Below are positions 25,642 to 60,994 of a stretch of 64,000 nucleotides of DNA, in pieces (positions within the stretch are counted from its first letter, which is position 1; every line of letters starts with the position of its first letter). Origin of the DNA: Ruminococcus sp. FC2018 (GTDB lineage: Bacteria > Bacillota > Clostridia > Oscillospirales > Ruminococcaceae); contig NZ_JHXH01000006.1 of NCBI RefSeq assembly GCF_000621805.1, positions 1 through 64,000 on the forward strand, read 5' to 3'. Below the pieces are notes generated by a model, which was not told the origin of the DNA, searched no databases, and was given only the letters and a program-made list of their open reading frames with translations. Made by a program: the position numbers and the translations under genes.

Positions 25642-26709
25642 GTGCAAAAGGCATATCTTATTCTGGAAAACGGTACTATTTTCGAGGGTAACAGCTTTGG
25701 TGCTGCCGGTGAAGCTGTTGGTGAAATAGTTTTTACTACCGGCATGGCGGGCTATCTTGAAACCGTTACCGATCCTTGTTTTTATGGACAGATCGTTGTT
25801 CAGACATTTCCTTCCATTGGAAATTACGGTGTTATTGCCGACAATATGGAATCGGCTGATTCACACGTTAAAGCTTATATTGTCAGAGAATGGTGTCAGG
25901 AGCCCAGCAACTACCGTTGTGAGGGTGATCTTGACACTTTTTTAAAGGAAAAAAATATTGTTGGTCTTTGCGGGATCGACACAAGACAGCTCACAAAGAT
26001 AATCCGTGAAAACGGAGTTATGAACGGAAAGATCGTGGGCGAGGGCGCAAGCTTCGGTCTGACCGACATCAAGGGCTATGCTATCGAAGATGCTGTGGAG
26101 AGCGTTACCTGCAAGGAGGAAAAGACATACAAGCCTCAGGGCGATGTTAAGTTCAGAGTGGCTGCTTTGGATCTTGGCATGAGAAATTCCATGCTGGCAC
26201 AGCTGCTCAGCAGGGGATATGAGGTCACTGTGGTTCCTGCATTCACCAAGGCTGAAAGGATAAAGGAGCTTGGGGTGCAGGGCGTTGTGCTTACCCAGGG
26301 TCCCGGCGATCCGTCACAGTATACACAGATCACAGATGAGCTTAAAAAGCTAATCGAGATGAAGATGCCTGTCTTTGCAGTGGGAATGGGTCATGAGCTT
26401 CTTGCTGTGGCACACGGCGCAAAGACATATAAACTGAAATACGGTCACAGAGGTGCAAACCAGCCTGTTGAATACATGGCAACGGGAAAGACATATATCA
26501 CCTCACAGAATCACGGCTACGGCGTTGAGAACCTTGCCCTGCCCGGCAACGCAAAGGCAAGCTTTGTCAATGTAAATGACAAGTCCTGTGAGGGGCTTGA
26601 GTATGAGGGCGAGCCGGTGGTATCCGTGCAGTTCGATCCGGAGCTTGACGGAGGACCGCTGGACACAAGCTTCCTTTACGAAAAGTTCGAGGGATACATG
26701 ACCAAGTAA
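25642..26709 (+). CDS. carA: Carbamoyl-phosphate synthase small subunit with degenerate glutaminase site
   Basis: The 355-residue protein has the CarA N-domain (about 1-150) and a class I amidotransferase domain (about 160-350, LTQGPGDP). In active CarA this domain hydrolyses glutamine and passes NH3 to CarB. Here the nucleophile-elbow block reads PVFAVGMGHELLA: Cys is Gly248 (GGA at 26383-26385), and the usual GHQ is GHE. The catalytic His block reads SVQFDPEL: His is Asp332 (GAT at 26635-26637). Only the Glu remains. Glutaminase activity is therefore unlikely, and ammonia-dependent synthesis with a structural CarA is the likely outcome. The start is GTG with AGGAGGAG upstream. carB follows after 30 bp. 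Confidence 0.93.
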   Translation: MQKAYLILENGTIFEGNSFGAAGEAVGEIVFTTGMAGYLETVTDPCFYGQIVVQTFPSIGNYGVIADNMESADSHVKAYIVREWCQEPSNYRCEGDLDTFLKEKNIVGLCGIDTRQLTKIIRENGVMNGKIVGEGASFGLTDIKGYAIEDAVESVTCKEEKTYKPQGDVKFRVAALDLGMRNSMLAQLLSRGYEVTVVPAFTKAERIKELGVQGVVLTQGPGDPSQYTQITDELKKLIEMKMPVFAVGMGHELLAVAHGAKTYKLKYGHRGANQPVEYMATGKTYITSQNHGYGVENLALPGNAKASFVNVNDKSCEGLEYEGEPVVSVQFDPELDGGPLDTSFLYEKFEGYMTK

Positions 26710-26739: not shown

Positions 26740-29700
26740 ATGCCTTTGAAAAAAGATATAAAAAGAGTCCTTGTCATCGGTTCGGGTCCTATCGTTATAG
26801 GTCAGGCAGCTGAGTTTGACTATGCGGGAACACAGGCTTGCCGTGCTCTTAAACAGCAGGGACTTGAGGTAATTCTTATAAACTCAAACCCCGCCACGAT
26901 CATGACAGATAACGCAATGGCGGATAAAATATATATCGAGCCGCTGACTCTTGAAACAGTCAAGAGAGTCATCAAGAAAGAACGCCCTGACAGCGTGCTT
27001 TCCACCCTTGGCGGACAGACCGGACTAACCCTTTCCATGCAGCTTGCAAAGGAAGGGTTCCTTGACAAGTACAACGTGAAGCTGCTGGGCGCAAGAGTGG
27101 AGACTATTGACAAAGCCGAGGACAGACAGATGTTCAAGGATACCATGGAGTCCATCGGACAGCCTTGTATCCCATCAAAGGTAGTCAATACCGTAGAGGA
27201 TGCAGTTGAGTTTGCCCACTCTATCGGCTATCCCCTTATCATAAGACCTGCCTTTACCCTTGGCGGAACAGGCGGCGGTATCGTGCATAACGATGAAGAG
27301 CTGCGTGAGATAACAAGAAACGGTCTTTACCTTTCACCTATAACCCAGGTGCTGGTTGAAAAATGTATCAGCGGCTGGAAGGAAATAGAGTTTGAGGTCA
27401 TCCGTGACTCAAAGGGCAACTGTATCACAGTGTGTTCAATGGAGAACGTTGACCCTGTGGGAGTGCATACGGGAGATTCTATCGTTATCGCTCCTGCGGT
27501 AACACTCTCAACACAGGAGTATGCAATGCTGCGCACAGCTGCGCTGAAGATAGTTGATACCCTTGAGGTGGAGGGCGGATGCAACTGCCAGTTCGCACTT
27601 GACCCTGAGTCAAACGAATATGCGGTTATCGAGGTAAACCCCAGAGTTTCCCGTTCTTCCGCACTTGCTTCAAAGGCAACAGGATATCCTATCGCAAAGG
27701 TTGCTGCCCAGATCGCTATCGGCTATACTCTTGACGAGATAAAGAACGCAGTTACCGGCAAGACTTATGCCTGCAACGAGCCGACTATCGACTACATAGT
27801 CTGCAAGCTGCCTAAGTGGCCCTTTGACAAGTTCGTTTATGCAAAGCGTGAGCTTGGCACCCAGATGAAGGCAACAGGTGAGGTAATGTCCATCGGTACC
27901 AGCTTCGAGCAGGCTATCATGAAGGCTGTGAGAGGTGCAGAGATAGGACACGACTGCCTTATCTCACCGAAGATGGAAGATCTTTCCGACGATGAGATAA
28001 AAGCTAAGATACATAACTGCGACGACGAAAGACTTTTCGTGGTCTATGAGGCACTGCGCCGTGGCGTAAGCGTTGAGGAGATACACAGGATAACCATGAT
28101 AGACGAGTGGTTCCTCAACAAGTTCCTTAACCTTATCGCCATGGAAAAACAGCTCAAGGATAATTACAGCGACGAGGTCTACCTTGCAGCCAAAAAGCTG
28201 GGCTACCCCGACAAGGTCATCCAAAGACTTTCCGGTCAGCCTATCAAAAAGAATATCCACTGCGTATATAAAATGGTTGACACCTGTGCTGCCGAGTTTG
28301 CGGCGCAGACACCGTATTTCTACTCCACCTATGATAACGAGGACGAGGCGAGCGAGTTTATTGCCAACAGAGTGGGCGAGAAAAAGACAGTTATCGTATT
28401 CGGCTCAGGTCCTATCCGTATCGGACAGGGTATCGAGTTTGACTATGCTTCCGTTCACTGCGTATGGGCACTTAAAGAGCATGGCTACGACGTTGTTATC
28501 GTAAACAACAACCCCGAGACGGTATCCACAGACTTTGATACCGCCGACAGACTTTACTTTGAGCCGCTTACCGACGAGGACGTATGGAACATCATCAGAG
28601 TTGAAAAGCCGGTGGGAGTTGTTGTAGCTTTCGGCGGACAGACAGCTATCAAGCTCACAAAGTTCCTTGACAGCAAGGGAGTTAAGATACTGGGTACACC
28701 TCCGGATTCTATCGACGCAGCCGAGGACAGAGAGAGATTTGACGAGCTGCTTGAACAGCTTAAAATAAAGCGTCCTGAGGGCTTTACGGTAATGACTGAA
28801 CAGGAGGCTCTGGACGTTGCAAACAAGATAGGTTATCCTGTACTTATGAGACCGTCCTATGTGCTTGGCGGACAGAACATGATAATCGCCTTTAATGACG
28901 ACGATATCAAGGAGTATATGGCTATAATCCTTGACCAGGGCATCGAGAACCCTGTGCTTATCGACAAGTACCTTATGGGTACAGAGCTGGAGATAGATGC
29001 TATATGCGACGGAGAGGAGATACTTATCCCGGGCATTATGGAGCATATCGAGAGAACAGGTATCCACTCGGGCGACTCTATCGCTGTTTATCCTGCATGG
29101 AATGTTTCGGATAAGCTTATGGAAAGAATAGTTGACTGCTCCAAGCGTCTTGCTATCTCGCTTAAAACAAAAGGTCTGGTGAATATCCAGTATCTTATAA
29201 ACAATGACGAGCTTTACGTTATCGAGGTAAATCCACGTTCTTCAAGAACTATCCCTTACATCTCAAAGGTTACAGGCGTGCCAATGGTCGATCTTGCTAC
29301 AAAGGCTATGCTGGGCGAAAAGCTGGCAGATATGGGCTACGGCACAGGTCTTTACAAGAACTCCCCGTATGTAGCTGTTAAGGTCCCTGTATTCAGCTTT
29401 GAAAAGCTTATCGACGTTGATAACCACCTTGGTCCCGAGATGAAGTCAACCGGTGAGGTGCTTGCAGTTTCTTCAAGCCTTGAGGAATCACTGTACAAGG
29501 GTCTTACCGCCGCAGGCTATAAGCTTGGCAAAACAGGCGGAGTGTTCATCACCGTAAGAGATACCGACAAGGGAGAGATCCCAAGGACAGCAAAGCTTTT
29601 TGCGGACCTGGGCTTCAAGCTTTATGCCACAAGAGGCACTGCTGCTGCGCTTAAAGAGCACGGTATCCAGGCAGAGGTGGTCAATAAGATACACGAGGGA

Positions 29701-30786
29701 GAGAACAACACCATCGACCTTATCGAAAGCGGAAAGGTATCCTATGTTATCTCCACATCGGCAAAGGGCAGAATGCCTACAAGAGATTCTGTTAAGATAA
29801 GAAGAAAGACTGTTGAGTGGAATATCCCTTGCCTTACTTCTATCGATACAGCCAACGCTATTGCTACGTCCCTGCGAAGCAAGTTCACCGAGAACTCCAC
29901 AGAGATAGTTGACATCAACAACATGAGAAAAGAAAAGCAGCACCTTGAATTCACCAAGATGCAGGGCTGCGGAAACGATTATGTATACTTCAACTGCTTT
30001 GACAAGGAGGTCGACAACCCCGAGGGTCTGGCTATCAACCTTTCAGACAGACATTTCGGTATCGGCGGCGACGGAGTCATTCTTATATGTCCGTCAGATA
30101 TAGCTGATGCCAAGATGAGAATGTTCAACCTTGACGGTTCGGAAGGAAAGATGTGCGGCAACGGCATAAGATGTGTTGCCAAGTTCATGCGTGACAACGG
30201 CATCGTTGACAAGGACGACATGACCGTCGAGACTCTTTCCGGCATTATGAAGATAAGCCTTACAAGACATTACGGCGAGGTCAACGGAGCTACCGTAAAT
30301 ATGGGCAAGGCTATACTTGAACCTGCACAGATACCTGTTACCCTTGAAGCAGGGGACAACGGTGCGGTGGTTGACAGACCGGTGCATATCATCGACAAGG
30401 ATTTCAATATCACCTGCGTTTCAATGGGCAATCCTCACGCTGTTACATTCATCAACAACGTGGACGATTTTGATATTGAAAAATACGGTCCTGTATTTGA
30501 ACACCATGAGATCTTCCCCGAGAGAGTCAACACCGAGTTTATCAAGGTCATTGACGAGCGCACACTTAAAATGAGAGTCTGGGAGAGAGGCTCCGGTGAG
30601 ACGTGGGCGTGCGGAACAGGTGCCTGCGCAGCAGTTACTGCCGCTGTGCTCAACGGCTACTGCAAGAAGGACGAGGAGATAACTGTTCTTCTGCGGGGCG
30701 GCACTCTGAAGATACGCTATACAGACGATGCGGTTTATCTTACCGGTGACGCTGTTACCGTATTCTCCGGTGAAATAGTCATCTGA
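26740..30786 (+). CDS. carB-dapF: Fusion: carbamoyl-phosphate synthase large subunit + diaminopimelate epimerase
   Basis: One uninterrupted 1348-residue frame. Residues ~1-1060 are a complete CarB: two ATP-grasp synthetase halves (SGPIVIGQAAEFDYAGTQAC and GSGPIRIGQGIEFDYASVHC) and a C-terminal MGS-like allosteric domain (TAKLFADLGFKLYATRGTA). Residues ~1073-1348 are a complete DapF starting LEFTKMQGCGNDYVY, with both active-site Cys blocks (MCGNGIRC and ACGTGACA). The ATG at 29932 (residue 1065) could start DapF, but no Shine-Dalgarno lies before it and no stop separates the parts. It catalyses carbamoyl-phosphate formation and LL-DAP to meso-DAP. dapL follows after 29 bp. Confidence 0.93.
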   Translation: MPLKKDIKRVLVIGSGPIVIGQAAEFDYAGTQACRALKQQGLEVILINSNPATIMTDNAMADKIYIEPLTLETVKRVIKKERPDSVLSTLGGQTGLTLSMQLAKEGFLDKYNVKLLGARVETIDKAEDRQMFKDTMESIGQPCIPSKVVNTVEDAVEFAHSIGYPLIIRPAFTLGGTGGGIVHNDEELREITRNGLYLSPITQVLVEKCISGWKEIEFEVIRDSKGNCITVCSMENVDPVGVHTGDSIVIAPAVTLSTQEYAMLRTAALKIVDTLEVEGGCNCQFALDPESNEYAVIEVNPRVSRSSALASKATGYPIAKVAAQIAIGYTLDEIKNAVTGKTYACNEPTIDYIVCKLPKWPFDKFVYAKRELGTQMKATGEVMSIGTSFEQAIMKAVRGAEIGHDCLISPKMEDLSDDEIKAKIHNCDDERLFVVYEALRRGVSVEEIHRITMIDEWFLNKFLNLIAMEKQLKDNYSDEVYLAAKKLGYPDKVIQRLSGQPIKKNIHCVYKMVDTCAAEFAAQTPYFYSTYDNEDEASEFIANRVGEKKTVIVFGSGPIRIGQGIEFDYASVHCVWALKEHGYDVVIVNNNPETVSTDFDTADRLYFEPLTDEDVWNIIRVEKPVGVVVAFGGQTAIKLTKFLDSKGVKILGTPPDSIDAAEDRERFDELLEQLKIKRPEGFTVMTEQEALDVANKIGYPVLMRPSYVLGGQNMIIAFNDDDIKEYMAIILDQGIENPVLIDKYLMGTELEIDAICDGEEILIPGIMEHIERTGIHSGDSIAVYPAWNVSDKLMERIVDCSKRLAISLKTKGLVNIQYLINNDELYVIEVNPRSSRTIPYISKVTGVPMVDLATKAMLGEKLADMGYGTGLYKNSPYVAVKVPVFSFEKLIDVDNHLGPEMKSTGEVLAVSSSLEESLYKGLTAAGYKLGKTGGVFITVRDTDKGEIPRTAKLFADLGFKLYATRGTAAALKEHGIQAEVVNKIHEGENNTIDLIESGKVSYVISTSAKGRMPTRDSVKIRRKTVEWNIPCLTSIDTANAIATSLRSKFTENSTEIVDINNMRKEKQHLEFTKMQGCGNDYVYFNCFDKEVDNPEGLAINLSDRHFGIGGDGVILICPSDIADAKMRMFNLDGSEGKMCGNGIRCVAKFMRDNGIVDKDDMTVETLSGIMKISLTRHYGEVNGATVNMGKAILEPAQIPVTLEAGDNGAVVDRPVHIIDKDFNITCVSMGNPHAVTFINNVDDFDIEKYGPVFEHHEIFPERVNTEFIKVIDERTLKMRVWERGSGETWACGTGACAAVTAAVLNGYCKKDEEITVLLRGGTLKIRYTDDAVYLTGDAVTVFSGEIVI

Positions 30787-30815: not shown

Positions 30816-32018
30816 ATGCCACAGATAAACGAAAATTTTTTGAAGCTTGAAAAGAATTATCTTTTCATAAATATTGCAAAGAAAGTAAATGCCTACAAAG
30901 CCGCTCACCCCGAAGCTGATATTATAAGAATGGGTATCGGCGATGTTACCCTGCCTATCGCAAAATGTGTTGTTGAGGCAATGAAAAAGGGCGCAGACGA
31001 AATGGGCGTGAAGGAGACTTTCAAGGGCTACGAGGATTCCGGTGCAGGCTATTATTTCCTGCGTGAGGCAGTTTCGGGTTATTACAAGTCCTTCGGAGTT
31101 GACGTTCCCGCAGGAGATATCCGTATCAACGACGGTGCAAAGGCTGACTGCGGAAATATCGTTGATATATTCGGAAACGACAACACCGTGCTTATCACAG
31201 ACCCTGCTTACCCTGTTTATGTGGACACAAACAGAATGTGCGGCAGAAATGTTATCTTTGCGGACTCAAACGAGAAGAACGGATTTGCTGCAATGCCCGA
31301 CGACAGCGTAAATTGTGACCTTATCTATCTTTGTTCGCCAAACAACCCCACAGGCTCGGCTTACACCTATGACCAGCTGAAAGAGTGGATCGCTTACGCT
31401 AAAAAGAACAATGCGGTTATTATCTACGACAGCGCTTACGAGGCGTTTATCACCGATGAGAACGTGCCAAGATCTATCTATGCGGTAGAGGGCGCAAAGG
31501 AAGTTGCTATCGAAATGTGCTCGCTGTCCAAGACAGCAGGCTTTACAGGTATGCGCTGCGGCTACACGGTAGTACCAAGCGAGCTTGTTGTAAAGGCTTC
31601 CGACGGCAGTGAGGTAAAGCTTGCGGACCTTTGGGGAAGAAGACAGGGCAGCAAGTTCAACGGCGTATCTTACCCGGTACAGTGCGCTGCTGCGGCAGTT
31701 TTCACCGAGGAAGGCTTAAAGCAGACAAGAGAGAACATCGAGTATTATAAGAATAACGCAAAGATAATCGGTGAAACTTTGGACGAGCTGGGAATAAAGT
31801 ACACCGGCGGAAAGAACAGCCCGTATATCTGGCTCAAGTGCCCCGGCAATATGGGCAGCTGGGAGTTCTTTGACCTGCTGCTTGAAAAGATAAATGTTGT
31901 CGGCACACCCGGTGCAGGCTTTGGCAAGAACGGCGAGGGCTGGTTCAGACTTACCGCATTCGGCGATAAGGACAGAACTATCGAGGCTATGCAAAGGCTC
32001 AAGACCCTTAAATTCTGA
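30816..32018 (+). CDS. dapL: LL-diaminopimelate aminotransferase
   Basis: A PLP enzyme converting tetrahydrodipicolinate and glutamate directly to LL-DAP, bypassing the succinyl or acetyl branches. 400 residues. The start MPQINENFLKLEKNYLF is typical of DapL; PNNPTGSAYTYDQL, YDSAYEAFI and the PLP-lysine block SLSKTAGFTGMRCGY are clear. The ATG at 30816 has AAGGAG upstream at good spacing; the in-frame TTG at 30807 overlaps that site. It sits directly after the dapF half of the fusion, so consecutive lysine-pathway steps are co-transcribed. Confidence 0.96.
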   Translation: MPQINENFLKLEKNYLFINIAKKVNAYKAAHPEADIIRMGIGDVTLPIAKCVVEAMKKGADEMGVKETFKGYEDSGAGYYFLREAVSGYYKSFGVDVPAGDIRINDGAKADCGNIVDIFGNDNTVLITDPAYPVYVDTNRMCGRNVIFADSNEKNGFAAMPDDSVNCDLIYLCSPNNPTGSAYTYDQLKEWIAYAKKNNAVIIYDSAYEAFITDENVPRSIYAVEGAKEVAIEMCSLSKTAGFTGMRCGYTVVPSELVVKASDGSEVKLADLWGRRQGSKFNGVSYPVQCAAAAVFTEEGLKQTRENIEYYKNNAKIIGETLDELGIKYTGGKNSPYIWLKCPGNMGSWEFFDLLLEKINVVGTPGAGFGKNGEGWFRLTAFGDKDRTIEAMQRLKTLKF

Positions 32019-57739: not shown

Positions 57740-57776
57740 AAAAAAAGCACCGCCTCTTGACGGTGCTTTAATTTTT
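57740..57776. terminator. Bidirectional terminator between the flavodiiron gene and dapB
   Basis: AAAGCACCG (57744-57752) pairs with CGGTGCTTT (57761-57769), with A-run and T-run flanks. Confidence 0.9.
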
Positions 57777-58533
57777 ACATCTCTTTTATCAGCTCGTTCA
57801 TGGTGTACATTCCAGCAGGCTTTCCCGCAAGGAAGCAGGCTGCGTTTACCGAACCTACGGCAAACACTTGCTTTGAGTGTGCCTCATGTTTAAGGGTTAT
57901 GACCTCGTCACGACCTGCAAAGATTATCTCGTGAGTACCAACGATAGTGCCGCCCCTTACAGCGTGCATACCGATTTCGGTCCTGGTGCGCTTTGCCCTT
58001 ACCGAGTGGCGGTCGTAAACATATGTATATTTGTTGTCAAGCTCCTCGTTTATGGCATTTGCAAGCATTATTGCCGTACCGCTGGGAGCGTCTATCTTTT
58101 GGTTGTGGTGCTGCTCCACGATCTCAATATCAAACTGGTCGCCAAGTATAGCCGCAGCCCTCTTTGCAAGGTCGGTGAGCAGGTTGATGCCAAGGGACAT
58201 ATTGAAGGTAAAGAAAACAGGGATCTGCTGGGCAGCCTTGTTTATCTTCTCGATCTCTTCCTTTGAATAGCCTGTTGTGCCGATGACCAAAGCAACAGAG
58301 TTCATTGTGCAGTAGTCAAGCAGACTGTCAAGGCTGGCAGGATTTGAAAAGTCGATTATCACGTCCGGCTTTTGTGTCATCTCAGCAGGCGATCTTACGA
58401 TCTCAAAATCCGAATATTTCTCACCGAACTTGTCGATACCGCAGACAGTTGTGCAATCCTCTCTTGATGCGATAACATCGGCAATATAGTGCCCCATTTT
58501 TCCGCTTGCTCCGCAAATGGCAATGTTTATCAT
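57775..58533 (-). CDS. dapB: 4-hydroxy-tetrahydrodipicolinate reductase
   Basis: It reduces hydroxy-tetrahydrodipicolinate with NAD(P)H to tetrahydrodipicolinate, the substrate of DapL. 252 residues; the dinucleotide site is NIAICGASGKMGHYIAD, the catalytic block is EIVEQHHNQKIDAPSGTA, and GTHEIIFAG near the C-terminus is conserved. It is the last gene of the lysine-riboswitch operon asd-dapA-dapB on the minus strand. Confidence 0.97.
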   Translation of the reverse strand: MINIAICGASGKMGHYIADVIASREDCTTVCGIDKFGEKYSDFEIVRSPAEMTQKPDVIIDFSNPASLDSLLDYCTMNSVALVIGTTGYSKEEIEKINKAAQQIPVFFTFNMSLGINLLTDLAKRAAAILGDQFDIEIVEQHHNQKIDAPSGTAIMLANAINEELDNKYTYVYDRHSVRAKRTRTEIGMHAVRGGTIVGTHEIIFAGRDEVITLKHEAHSKQVFAVGSVNAACFLAGKPAGMYTMNELIKEM

Positions 58534-58604
58534 ATTATCAGTCCTTTGTATTTTATTTGCAAAAAAACGGACGGAAACGTGCTCCGCCCGTTTTGCGGGA
58601 ATTT

Positions 58605-59495
58605 TTACTTGATAAGACCTATCTTTTCCATGCTTGCTTTAAGCTTGTCGATCTTCTCCTGTTCCATTTTCACAAGGGGCAGTCTGCACTCGCCCACCTC
58701 AAAGCCCATCAGATTGAGAGCCTCCTTAACAGGTATCGGGTTAACGTCGCAGAAAAGCATATTTGTGAACTCAAGCAGTCTGCCTGCCTTTTCTCTTGCC
58801 TCAGGGTACTTGTTCTCAAGGCAAAGGGAAGCGATCTCGTGAGTTTCAAACGGCATACAGTTGGAAAGCACCGAGATAACACCCACGCCGCCAAGAGCCA
58901 TGATAGGTACTATCTGGTCATCGTTTCCGGAATAGATGTCGATCTTGTCGCCGCACAGTGCAGCGACCTTAGCGATCTGACTGATGTTGCCGCTTGCTTC
59001 CTTAACAGCCACGATATTCTCCACCTCAGCCAGCTTAGCAACTGTCTCAGGCAGAATGTTCACGCCTGTTCTTGAAGGAACATTGTAAAGGATACACGGC
59101 AGCTTTGTGGAATTTGCGATAGCAGTGTAGTGCTGGATAAGTCCTCTCTGCGAGGTCTTGTTGTAGTAAGGTGTTACCAGCAGCACAGCGTCTGCACCCA
59201 GAGCCTCTGCCTCTTGTGTGAGGTGGATAGCATAGTCCGTGTGATTTGAGCCTGTACCTGCGATAACCGGTATCCTGTGGTTTACCTTTTCAACAGCGAA
59301 CTTGATGCACTCGATATGCTCCTCATCTGTCATTGTTGAGCTTTCGCCTGTGGTCCCGCAGATAATGATAGCATCAGTGCCGTTGTCAATGTTGAAATCT
59401 ATAAGCTCTCCCAGCTTGTCATAGTTGATAGAGCCGTCAGCGTACATTGGGGTTGCAATAGCAACACCTGCACCTGTAAAAATAGTGTTTTTCAT
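58605..59495 (-). CDS. dapA: 4-hydroxy-tetrahydrodipicolinate synthase
   Basis: It condenses pyruvate with aspartate semialdehyde, the committed lysine step. 296 residues, TIM barrel. ICGTTGESSTMTDEEH is the substrate loop, Tyr in LLVTPYYNKTSQRG, Tyr in CILYNVPSRTG and Schiff-base Lys in IVAVKEASGNISQ. ATG 59495 has GAAAGGAG upstream; the in-frame TTG 18 bp earlier overlaps it. It is second in the operon, 27 bp after asd. Confidence 0.97.
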   Translation of the reverse strand: MKNTIFTGAGVAIATPMYADGSINYDKLGELIDFNIDNGTDAIIICGTTGESSTMTDEEHIECIKFAVEKVNHRIPVIAGTGSNHTDYAIHLTQEAEALGADAVLLVTPYYNKTSQRGLIQHYTAIANSTKLPCILYNVPSRTGVNILPETVAKLAEVENIVAVKEASGNISQIAKVAALCGDKIDIYSGNDDQIVPIMALGGVGVISVLSNCMPFETHEIASLCLENKYPEAREKAGRLLEFTNMLFCDVNPIPVKEALNLMGFEVGECRLPLVKMEQEKIDKLKASMEKIGLIK

Positions 59496-59522
59496 ATGAG
59501 TGACTCCTTTCAAAAGTCATTA

Positions 59523-60605
59523 TCAGTCAAAATAGCCCTTTGCCGCAAGAAGCTCTGCAAGAAGCACTGCACCGCCGGCAGCACCTCTGAGTGTGTTGTG
59601 GGACAGGCAAACAAACTTGTAATCAAACAGGGTATCCTCACGCAGTCTGCCTATGGAAACAGCCATGCCGCCTTCAAGATTTCTGTCCAGCTTAGCCTGT
59701 GGTCTGTCGTCCTCCTCGAAGTAGTGGAGGAACTGCTTTGGTGCGCTTGGAAGTTTGAGCTGCTGAGGAACACCGCTGAAGCTCTTCCATGCAGCCAGTA
59801 TCTCTTCCTTTGAAGGCTTGTTTTCAAACGAGCAGAACACCGCAGCCGTGTGACCGTCGGAAACAGGTACTCTCAGACACTGAGCCGTGATAGCAGGCTC
59901 TGTTGCGTTAACGATCTCATCGCCCTCAATGTGACCCCAGATCTTCATTGGCTCCTTCTCGGATTTCTCCTCCTCGCCGCCGATATAAGGGATAACGTTG
60001 TCAAGGATCTCAGGGAACGTCTCGAAAGTTCTGCCTGCGCCCGAAATTGCCTGATATGTGCAGGCAAGAGCCTTTGTTACCTTGTATTTCTCCATAAGCG
60101 GAGCAAGTGCAGGAACATAGGACTGCAGCGAGCAGTTGGACTTGACAGCGATAAAGCCCTTCTTAGTGCCAAGACGCTTTCTCTGTGCAGGGATGATATC
60201 TACGTGCTGAGGGTTGATCTCAGGGATAACCATTGGTACATCGGGAGTAAATCTGTGAGCCGAGTTGTTTGAAACGATAGGGCACTCAGCCTTTGCATAT
60301 CTTTCCTCAAGTGCTCTGATCTCATCCTTTTTCATATCTACCGCACAGAAGCAGAAATCTACCATAGAGGCGATCTTTTCCACATCGTCTGTTGCGTTGA
60401 GAACGATCATATCCTCAAGATCTTCAGGCATTGGATCGGCAAGCTTCCACTTTCCGCTCACAGCCTCTTTGAAGGTCTTTCCTGCGCTTCTTGGAGAAGC
60501 GGCAAGACAAACTATTTCAAACCACGGGTGCTTGTCGAGGATAAGACAGAATCTCTGTCCTACCATACCCGTTGCACCGATGATACCGACCTTATACTTT
60601 TTCAT
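59523..60605 (-). CDS. asd: Aspartate-semialdehyde dehydrogenase
   Basis: It reduces aspartyl phosphate to aspartate semialdehyde, the branch point to lysine, threonine and methionine. The 360 residues fit the fungal/archaeal-type subfamily: KVGIIGATGMVGQRF, catalytic Cys in AVKSNCSLQSYVPAL and SGAGRTFETFPEILDNVIPYIGGEEEKSE. ATG 60605 has GAAAGGA upstream; an in-frame start 27 bp earlier lacks one. It is the first gene of the operon, behind the lysine riboswitch and its terminator. Confidence 0.96.
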   Translation of the reverse strand: MKKYKVGIIGATGMVGQRFCLILDKHPWFEIVCLAASPRSAGKTFKEAVSGKWKLADPMPEDLEDMIVLNATDDVEKIASMVDFCFCAVDMKKDEIRALEERYAKAECPIVSNNSAHRFTPDVPMVIPEINPQHVDIIPAQRKRLGTKKGFIAVKSNCSLQSYVPALAPLMEKYKVTKALACTYQAISGAGRTFETFPEILDNVIPYIGGEEEKSEKEPMKIWGHIEGDEIVNATEPAITAQCLRVPVSDGHTAAVFCSFENKPSKEEILAAWKSFSGVPQQLKLPSAPKQFLHYFEEDDRPQAKLDRNLEGGMAVSIGRLREDTLFDYKFVCLSHNTLRGAAGGAVLLAELLAAKGYFD

Positions 60606-60706
60606 AATAAAAACTTCCTTTCTGTTTTGCACAATGGGGTGACATAATCGCCAAAAATGCGGCGGTCCGACTTGCCCTATTTGCGCAAAAGCATAAAATT
60701 GACCAA

Positions 60707-60737
60707 ATAATAAAAAAACCGGTTGAAAACCGGCACA
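60707..60737 (-). terminator. Attenuator terminator below the lysine riboswitch
   Basis: On the minus strand CCGGTTTT/CAACCGG forms a stem followed by TTTTTTTATT. It lies between the aptamer and asd, as expected for transcriptional control. Confidence 0.85.
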
Positions 60738-60778
60738 TCATACAGTATAATAAGAATGTTGACATAATGTTTTATGTC

Positions 60779-60986
60779 GATAGCACTCCATCATAATTAT
60801 GATGACAACCGGTGATCTGTTAGACCAAACAGCCAGCTGGACGTTCCCACGATCCGCTTCGGCGGTATCACCTTTCACACTGCTGCACGATGTCGGGAAC
60901 ATCGTTTTGACTCAGGAGCAGCCAATGTAATAAAAAGGCACCCCCGGGACAGCAGCGGTACTCATCTCAACCGCACCTCTATCTGT
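60779..60986 (-). promoter_or_regulatory. Lysine riboswitch (L box) controlling asd-dapA-dapB
   Basis: Read on the minus strand, the aptamer opens GATAGAGGTGCGG, continues with GAGATGAGTACCGC, GAAAGGTGATACCGCCGAAG and closes with GGAGTGCTATC, all hallmark L-box segments. P1 pairs GATAG (60983-60979) with CTATC (60783-60779). Lysine binding should favour the downstream terminator at 60707-60737 and shut off the operon. About 170 nt separate the aptamer from the asd start. Confidence 0.93.
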
Positions 60987-60994
60987 TGTGTAAT

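Follow-up and report, generated by a model that had tools for sequence, protein, structure and literature searches.

Why should carbamoyl-phosphate synthase (CPS), the entry to pyrimidines and arginine, and diaminopimelate (DAP) epimerase be made as one polypeptide? The question is raised by a locus in a 64,000-nucleotide stretch of Ruminococcus sp. FC2018 (contig NZ_JHXH01000006.1, positions 1 to 64,000; hereafter the window), in which a single plus-strand gene of 1348 codons, carB-dapF (26740..30786), encodes the CPS large subunit CarB followed by the epimerase DapF. Comparison with related genomes confirmed that the fusion is real and not an assembly error. We consider it slightly better than an even bet that the chain of the window is bifunctional and that, in general, the DapF half serves as an effector domain that binds DAP at the end of the CPS tail, in many lineages as a pseudo-epimerase.

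The fused gene, its junction and its distribution

The frame runs from the ATG at 26740 to the stop codon at 30784-30786 without an internal stop, and the calculated mass of the product is 148.8 kDa. Residues 1-1049 (26740..29886) form the CPS large-subunit part, which matched NF003671 (1504 bits; cut-off 599) and TIGR01369 (1462 bits; cut-off 1027) over its full length. Pfam placed both CPS ATP-binding halves, the oligomerisation domain and the MGS-like allosteric domain (residues 950-1033) in order, followed by the DAP epimerase domain. The latter (residues 1070-1346; 29947..30777) scored 292.3 bits against TIGR00652 (cut-off 114.65), and PDB sequence matches were to DapF. Alignment identified both catalytic cysteines: C1139 (codon 30154..30156) is the equivalent of Cys73 in H. 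influenzae DapF, and C1291 (codon 30610..30612) that of Cys217. An initial annotation of this DNA had described a complete CarB and a complete DapF with both cysteines and no stop between them, and the frame and the profile matches bear this out. The DapF/glutamate racemase family bifunc_DapF (NF038284) is also a DapF relative with two functions; however, the window protein scored 118.9 bits against a cut-off of 350, and this assignment was rejected. In the window genome (G000, 99.57% complete), the fused DapF was the single DapF match, and the profile of diaminopimelate dehydrogenase (Ddh) gave no match. Judged by its residues, the fused DapF of this species should be an active epimerase, and it is the only DAP epimerase detected in the genome.

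The initial annotation had proposed looking for the junction in related genomes. A full-length fused frame was present in 24 of 29 genomes of the genus, at 84-100% identity. Three others (G016, G019 and G026) were joined across the junction and then cut by a contig end, and in G027 the gene was split over contigs; in G006, the last of the 29, the fusion was not found. A GTDB scan gave at least 588 confirmed loci; all of the 80 listed span the junction, at 71-95% identity, and among the closest named records listed were Ruminococcus sp. UBA3767 (94%) and R. albus KH2T6 (85%). An assembly or sequencing error at the junction is ruled out by the genus genomes and the 80 GTDB loci.

Separate translation of dapF from an internal start was also considered. 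In-frame ATGs occur at the boundary at 29923 (residue 1062) and 29959. The ribosome-site match ahead of each is just 2 contiguous bases long; it reaches 5 at the carB start and 6 at dapL. The initial annotation was thus right that no ribosome site precedes the internal ATG; the position it gave, 29932, is nine bases off. The best start near the DapF boundary reached at least 5 ribosome-site bases in 14 of 138 fused genes, compared with 19 of 25 motif-located carB starts. Genes for standalone DapF, too, reach this value in only 11 of 25 cases, which limits the power of the test. With the same junction recurring in so many genomes, we regard an artefact of either kind, misassembly or internal initiation, as scarcely credible.

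At the junction (residues 1050-1069; 29887..29946), the CPS C-terminal tail leads straight into DapF. The spacing between the CPS tail motif and the GNDY motif of DapF, measured in 106 of the 138 fused proteins (the remaining 32 were off the motif pattern), was 37 residues in 99, 36 in 4 and 44 in 3. An AlphaFold2 model of residues 404-1348, built with 69 relatives, had a mean predicted local distance difference test score (pLDDT) of 86.8 and a predicted template modelling score (pTM) of 0.81, with pLDDT 87-92 for residues 1044-1073. The model fits an ordered junction; contacts between the domains are not proven by it.

Stop-free fused frames were found in at least 101 of 297 genomes of the order, at least 41 of 293 of the class (four of them also among the 101) and at least 15 of 299 of the phylum, 13 of these 15 from classes other than that of the window. 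Genomes were drawn evenly at each rank. Frames were counted by hand among the matches listed, so that the figures are lower bounds. Standalone DapFs are also common in these groups. Among plasmids, 148 records matched and none covered 80% of the query. The fusion is common to many families of the class and its DapF half is under purifying selection (see below); the suggestion in the initial annotation of mere operon read-through is therefore not supported.

Catalytic cysteines, routes to meso-DAP and the DAP pocket

The cysteine survey covered the 138 fused genomes among the higher-scoring matches listed (101 from the order list and 37 more from the class list). The Cys73 equivalent was kept in 50 and lost in 88, where it was replaced by Ala (61), Gly (15), Ser (5), Phe (5), Thr (1) or Pro (1). 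Of the 50 Cys73-bearing proteins, 47 have both cysteines, two have Ser at 217 and one is cut off; of the 88 Cys73-less ones, five have also lost Cys217. Both cysteines were present in all 25 standalone DapFs read for them. In this type of enzyme, changing one catalytic Cys to Ser hinders catalysis (PMC12039745). Cys-less fused forms are therefore probably poor or dead epimerases.

The tree divides the 138 proteins into two sets: a clade of 73, to which the window protein belongs and in which 50 carry Cys73, and 65 others, none with Cys73. The 23 losses in the window's clade are to Gly (13), Phe (5), Ser (3), Ala (1) and Thr (1). The smallest number of kept/lost changes was 9 on the first tree, 10 on a tree of the CarB part alone and 11 when 13 fused proteins from other classes were added; all are FastTree trees, in which many of the inner branches are poorly supported (in the first, 34 of 135 were weak). 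Cys73 has thus been lost repeatedly. Among these 13 proteins, Cys73 was kept in five and lost in eight. Three of one family had lost both cysteines and kept the equivalents of N11, N64, N157, N190, E208 and R209; G939, also from another class, had lost both cysteines, N11 and N190.

Loss of Cys73 was compared with the presence of another route to meso-DAP, that is, a separate DapF or Ddh. Separate DapFs were coded by hand, and Ddh was sought in all 65 genomes without one and in 15 others, 7 of which have it. A separate DapF above the cut-off was found in 62 of the 88 Cys73-less genomes, and Ddh above the cut-off in 22 of the remaining 26; the supposition that a second DapF accompanies each loss of Cys73 was thus wrong. 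Another route was present in 84 of 88 Cys73-less genomes compared with 35 of 50 Cys73-bearing ones (Fisher p 5.7e-5, phylogeny ignored), and in the window's clade of 73 all 23 losses of Cys73 occurred in genomes with another route. Of the 19 genomes in which no other route was found, 15 keep Cys73 (14 with both cysteines) and four are Cys73-less.

Contacts to d,l-DAP have been described for C. glutamicum DapF (PMC5296763). We scored nine of them by motif matching (N64, G74, N75, N157, N190, E208, R209, G218 and T219 in H. influenzae numbering). The window DapF keeps all nine, and so do 77 of the 88 Cys73-less proteins, in which each single site is kept in 84-88. Within the group of 65, the DapF domains have a median identity of 0.59, and 9 of 12 pocket positions are at least 95% conserved, compared with 65 of 284 columns (hypergeometric p 1.3e-4). 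Median omega of the DapF domains was 0.086 in the group of 65 (15 pairs), 0.0745 in Cys-bearing proteins (28 pairs) and 0.040 in other Cys-less ones (13 pairs); the values are rough, because dS was often above 1. A model of the MGS-DapF part of a Cys-less protein (pLDDT 85.4, pTM 0.67) had the DapF fold, with ligand-bound DapF 9mro as the best match. The sequence pattern expected of a pseudo-enzyme, with catalysis lost and the ligand site kept, is seen in the Cys73-less relatives; the window DapF keeps both cysteines.

A different outcome of cysteine loss would be new chemistry, in which the Cys73-less domains act as one-cysteine enzymes on DAP or a like compound, in the manner of dehydratases and isomerases of the same fold. 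Cys217 is kept in most of them, and a fold search gave PhzF and 3-hydroxyproline dehydratase as distant relatives. However, position 73 holds any of six residues with no single new acid-base residue among them, and Cys217 is itself changed in the five proteins noted above and in 4 of the 13 from other classes. We consider this very unlikely.

Could the two halves simply be independent enzymes, joined when adjacent operon genes lost a stop codon, with equal dosage or nothing as the benefit? Both enzymes of the window look complete, and dapL comes next in an operon-like order. Unfused neighbours also exist: in three genomes (L192, L270 and L271; G331:C15, G570:C57 and G760:C68), dapF lies right behind a carB of another CarB lineage, in the same frame and with one stop between. 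Such a plain bifunctional fusion leaves unexplained the constant CPS-DapF spacing and the 88 of 138 proteins that kept the domain, its pocket and a low omega after loss of the cysteine. We judge it unlikely, though far from negligible. Because adjacent carB-dapF occurs in a separate CarB lineage, CPS and DapF have come together more than once. The three pairs were also considered as recent splits of a fused gene; this was rejected, as their CarBs end differently and their DapFs cluster with the standalone proteins. In G331, dapL follows the unfused pair.

Alternatively, the DapF half could be a structural part that serves CPS folding or assembly and senses no ligand. DapFs are dimeric (PMC5296763) and could set the oligomer; an inactive dihydroorotase that is needed by P. 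aeruginosa aspartate transcarbamoylase (PMC7053772) is a precedent; and the pTM and the ordered junction of the window model are in keeping with it. A scaffold, however, needs no DAP contacts, yet most Cys-less proteins keep every one of the nine. We find this explanation improbable, somewhat more so than an unadorned fusion.

The CPS half and a candidate effector role

At both catalytic sites of the window CPS, the Arg, Glu, Gln and Asn residues of the ATP-grasp sites are identical to those of E. coli, and the ATP-grasp residues examined are conserved almost throughout the two groups, the window's clade and the Cys-less group of 65. The ornithine-site residue Thr1042 is kept, as are Glu783 and Asp791, which we take to belong to the same site. 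The window CPS also has Thr974, Thr977, Lys993 and Lys954, the last presumably part of the site for uridine monophosphate (UMP). In E. coli, Thr977 and Lys993 are UMP residues and Thr1042 is an ornithine-site residue (PMC6245113). The window CPS, which carries both Thr977 and Lys993, may respond to UMP. In the window's clade, Lys993 was present in 69 of the 71 proteins that could be aligned and Lys954 in 68 of 71; in the Cys-less group, the figures were 15 of 62 and 11 of 62. The fused gene was the only CPS large subunit found in 29 of the 65 genomes of the Cys-less group, 7 of which keep Lys993; the CPS half is therefore needed in these genomes. Loss of Lys993 may alternatively mark an arginine-type CPS. 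A new class of CPS gated by a cell-wall amino acid, in which a pseudo-epimerase replaces the classical nucleotide site in one large group, is a tentative proposal that we hold possible, although short of an even chance.

The favoured explanation, a bifunctional chain in the window and, in general, a DAP-binding effector domain, would work as follows. The CPS large subunit of the fused chain would work with CarA from the preceding gene. In the window species, DapL would make LL-DAP, which the fused DapF would convert to meso-DAP for lysine and wall. Free DapF is a dimer and closes on DAP (PMC5296763); binding of DAP may likewise close the two-lobed fused domain, and closure may act through the CPS tail to set CPS activity. 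Carbamoyl phosphate, and hence uridine triphosphate, uridine diphosphate (UDP)-sugars and arginine, would then be made in step with DAP. Many relatives would have dropped the epimerase chemistry and retained the domain as a DAP-binding pseudo-enzyme. The effect could be in either direction: activation would match UDP-sugar supply to wall synthesis, and inhibition would spare nitrogen and ATP when DAP accumulates. A link between wall-precursor and nucleotide supply had been suggested in the initial annotation without evidence; of the readings proposed there it survives best, by way of the Cys-less relatives that keep the DAP pocket.

Several observations weigh against this explanation. Cys217 survives in 83 of the 88 Cys73-less proteins, a possible sign that some chemistry is left, and the Cys-less group of 65 may represent one event. 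In four Cys-less genomes (G294, G468, G479 and G501), no separate DapF or Ddh was found (other epimerase types were not searched), and G274, in which no other route was found, keeps Cys73 and has Ser in place of Cys217. Phylogenetically independent pairs for Cys loss and another route, too few for a proper test, gave 3.0 for, 0.0 against and 6 equal, and those with separate DapF alone 2.1 versus 0.4; neither was significant. Asn11 is less well kept in the group of 65 (48 of 65; changed in 17). The UMP-site residue Thr977 is kept in 61 of 62 proteins of the Cys-less group, much as in the window's clade (69 of 71). Finally, three standalone DapFs (L277, L278 and L279) nest among the fused ones in the DapF tree; the fusion therefore appears reversible, as if the domain had been freed again.

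Known systems resemble parts of this arrangement. E. coli CarB is the same enzyme over its full length, with the same ATP-grasp residues and allosteric domain; however, it ends where the DapF of the window begins, and its effectors are UMP, inosine monophosphate and ornithine (PMC6245113). Human CPS1 is also switched at its C-terminal domain by a small amino-acid ligand, and its last 20 residues are important for activation by that ligand (PMC4655335); its N-acetylglutamate binds the allosteric domain itself, with no added domain. Free DapF (TIGR00652) shares the fold and contacts, and in the window both cysteines, but is a chain of its own, with both cysteines kept in 25 of 25 proteins examined. 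In E. coli, DapF regulates another enzyme, raising the activity of RppH (PMC4227774), although there the chains are separate, the DapF is active and the target is RNA. P. aeruginosa aspartate transcarbamoylase, which acts at the start of pyrimidine synthesis, requires a dead enzyme as its partner (PMC7053772); unlike the fused DapF, this partner comes from the same pathway and is a separate chain. The initial annotation knew of no described CarB-DapF enzyme; a literature search, with subscription papers and supplements mostly outside its reach, gave none either, and the passages checked of PMC9026213 contain no description of one. Enzyme fusions have precedents, as do regulatory pseudo-enzymes; a CPS that carries a DapF-derived domain is new as far as the literature was searched.

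If the effector role is true, the synthesis of wall precursors and that of nucleotides would be directly coupled by regulation in common gut bacteria, and in many gut and rumen Clostridia the supply of pyrimidines and UDP-sugars would be linked directly to the pool of peptidoglycan precursors. For annotation, it would be wrong to count the fused DapF as an ordinary epimerase in 88 of the 138 fused genomes examined, and the only DAP epimerase detected in the window species is easily overlooked inside a carB gene.

Neighbouring genes and other loci

In the window, carA (25642..26709, plus strand), encoding the CPS small (glutaminase) subunit, lies directly upstream of carB-dapF and matched NF009475 and TIGR01368 above their cut-offs. 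As the initial annotation had stated, dapL follows directly: the gene for LL-diaminopimelate aminotransferase (30816..32018, plus strand; TIGR03542, 491 bits, above cut-off) has its own ribosome site. Genes for an acyltransferase, acetolactate synthase and ketol-acid reductoisomerase come next. The genome has a second, unfused carA-carB elsewhere, whose CarB is 52% identical to the fused one. Its pathway could not be assigned from its neighbours, which are its own carA and an asparagine synthase gene; three further frames had no NCBIfam match at 1e-30.

Some fused loci differ from the common form. L060:1720-6849 (plus strand) carries CarA, CarB and DapF in one frame of 1710 residues, the only such case among the loci scanned; loss of a stop codon, or an error in the sequence of that assembly, could account for it. 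L156 (G435:C38) has a fused frame of 1573 residues, with about 200 additional residues midway through CarB. In L143 (G432:C11), L146 (G410:C64) and L185 (G512:C17), a second, separate dapF lies at most a few genes downstream of a fused carB-dapF with both cysteines. L181 (G331:C7), which diverges most among the fused proteins, has a long branch, the changes N11D, N157S and R209K, and a CPS half that scored 878 bits, below the family cut-off. Its genome has two other CPS large subunits, and decay once redundant is possible.

No Rfam match above the gathering score was found near carA-carB-dapF; other regulators were not searched. Elsewhere in the window, a lysine riboswitch (RF00168; 60773-60989, 81.4 bits) lies ahead of aspartate-semialdehyde dehydrogenase, dapA and dapB (57775-60989, minus strand). 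The first steps of the DAP pathway are thus lysine-controlled within the same window, away from carA-carB-dapF-dapL.

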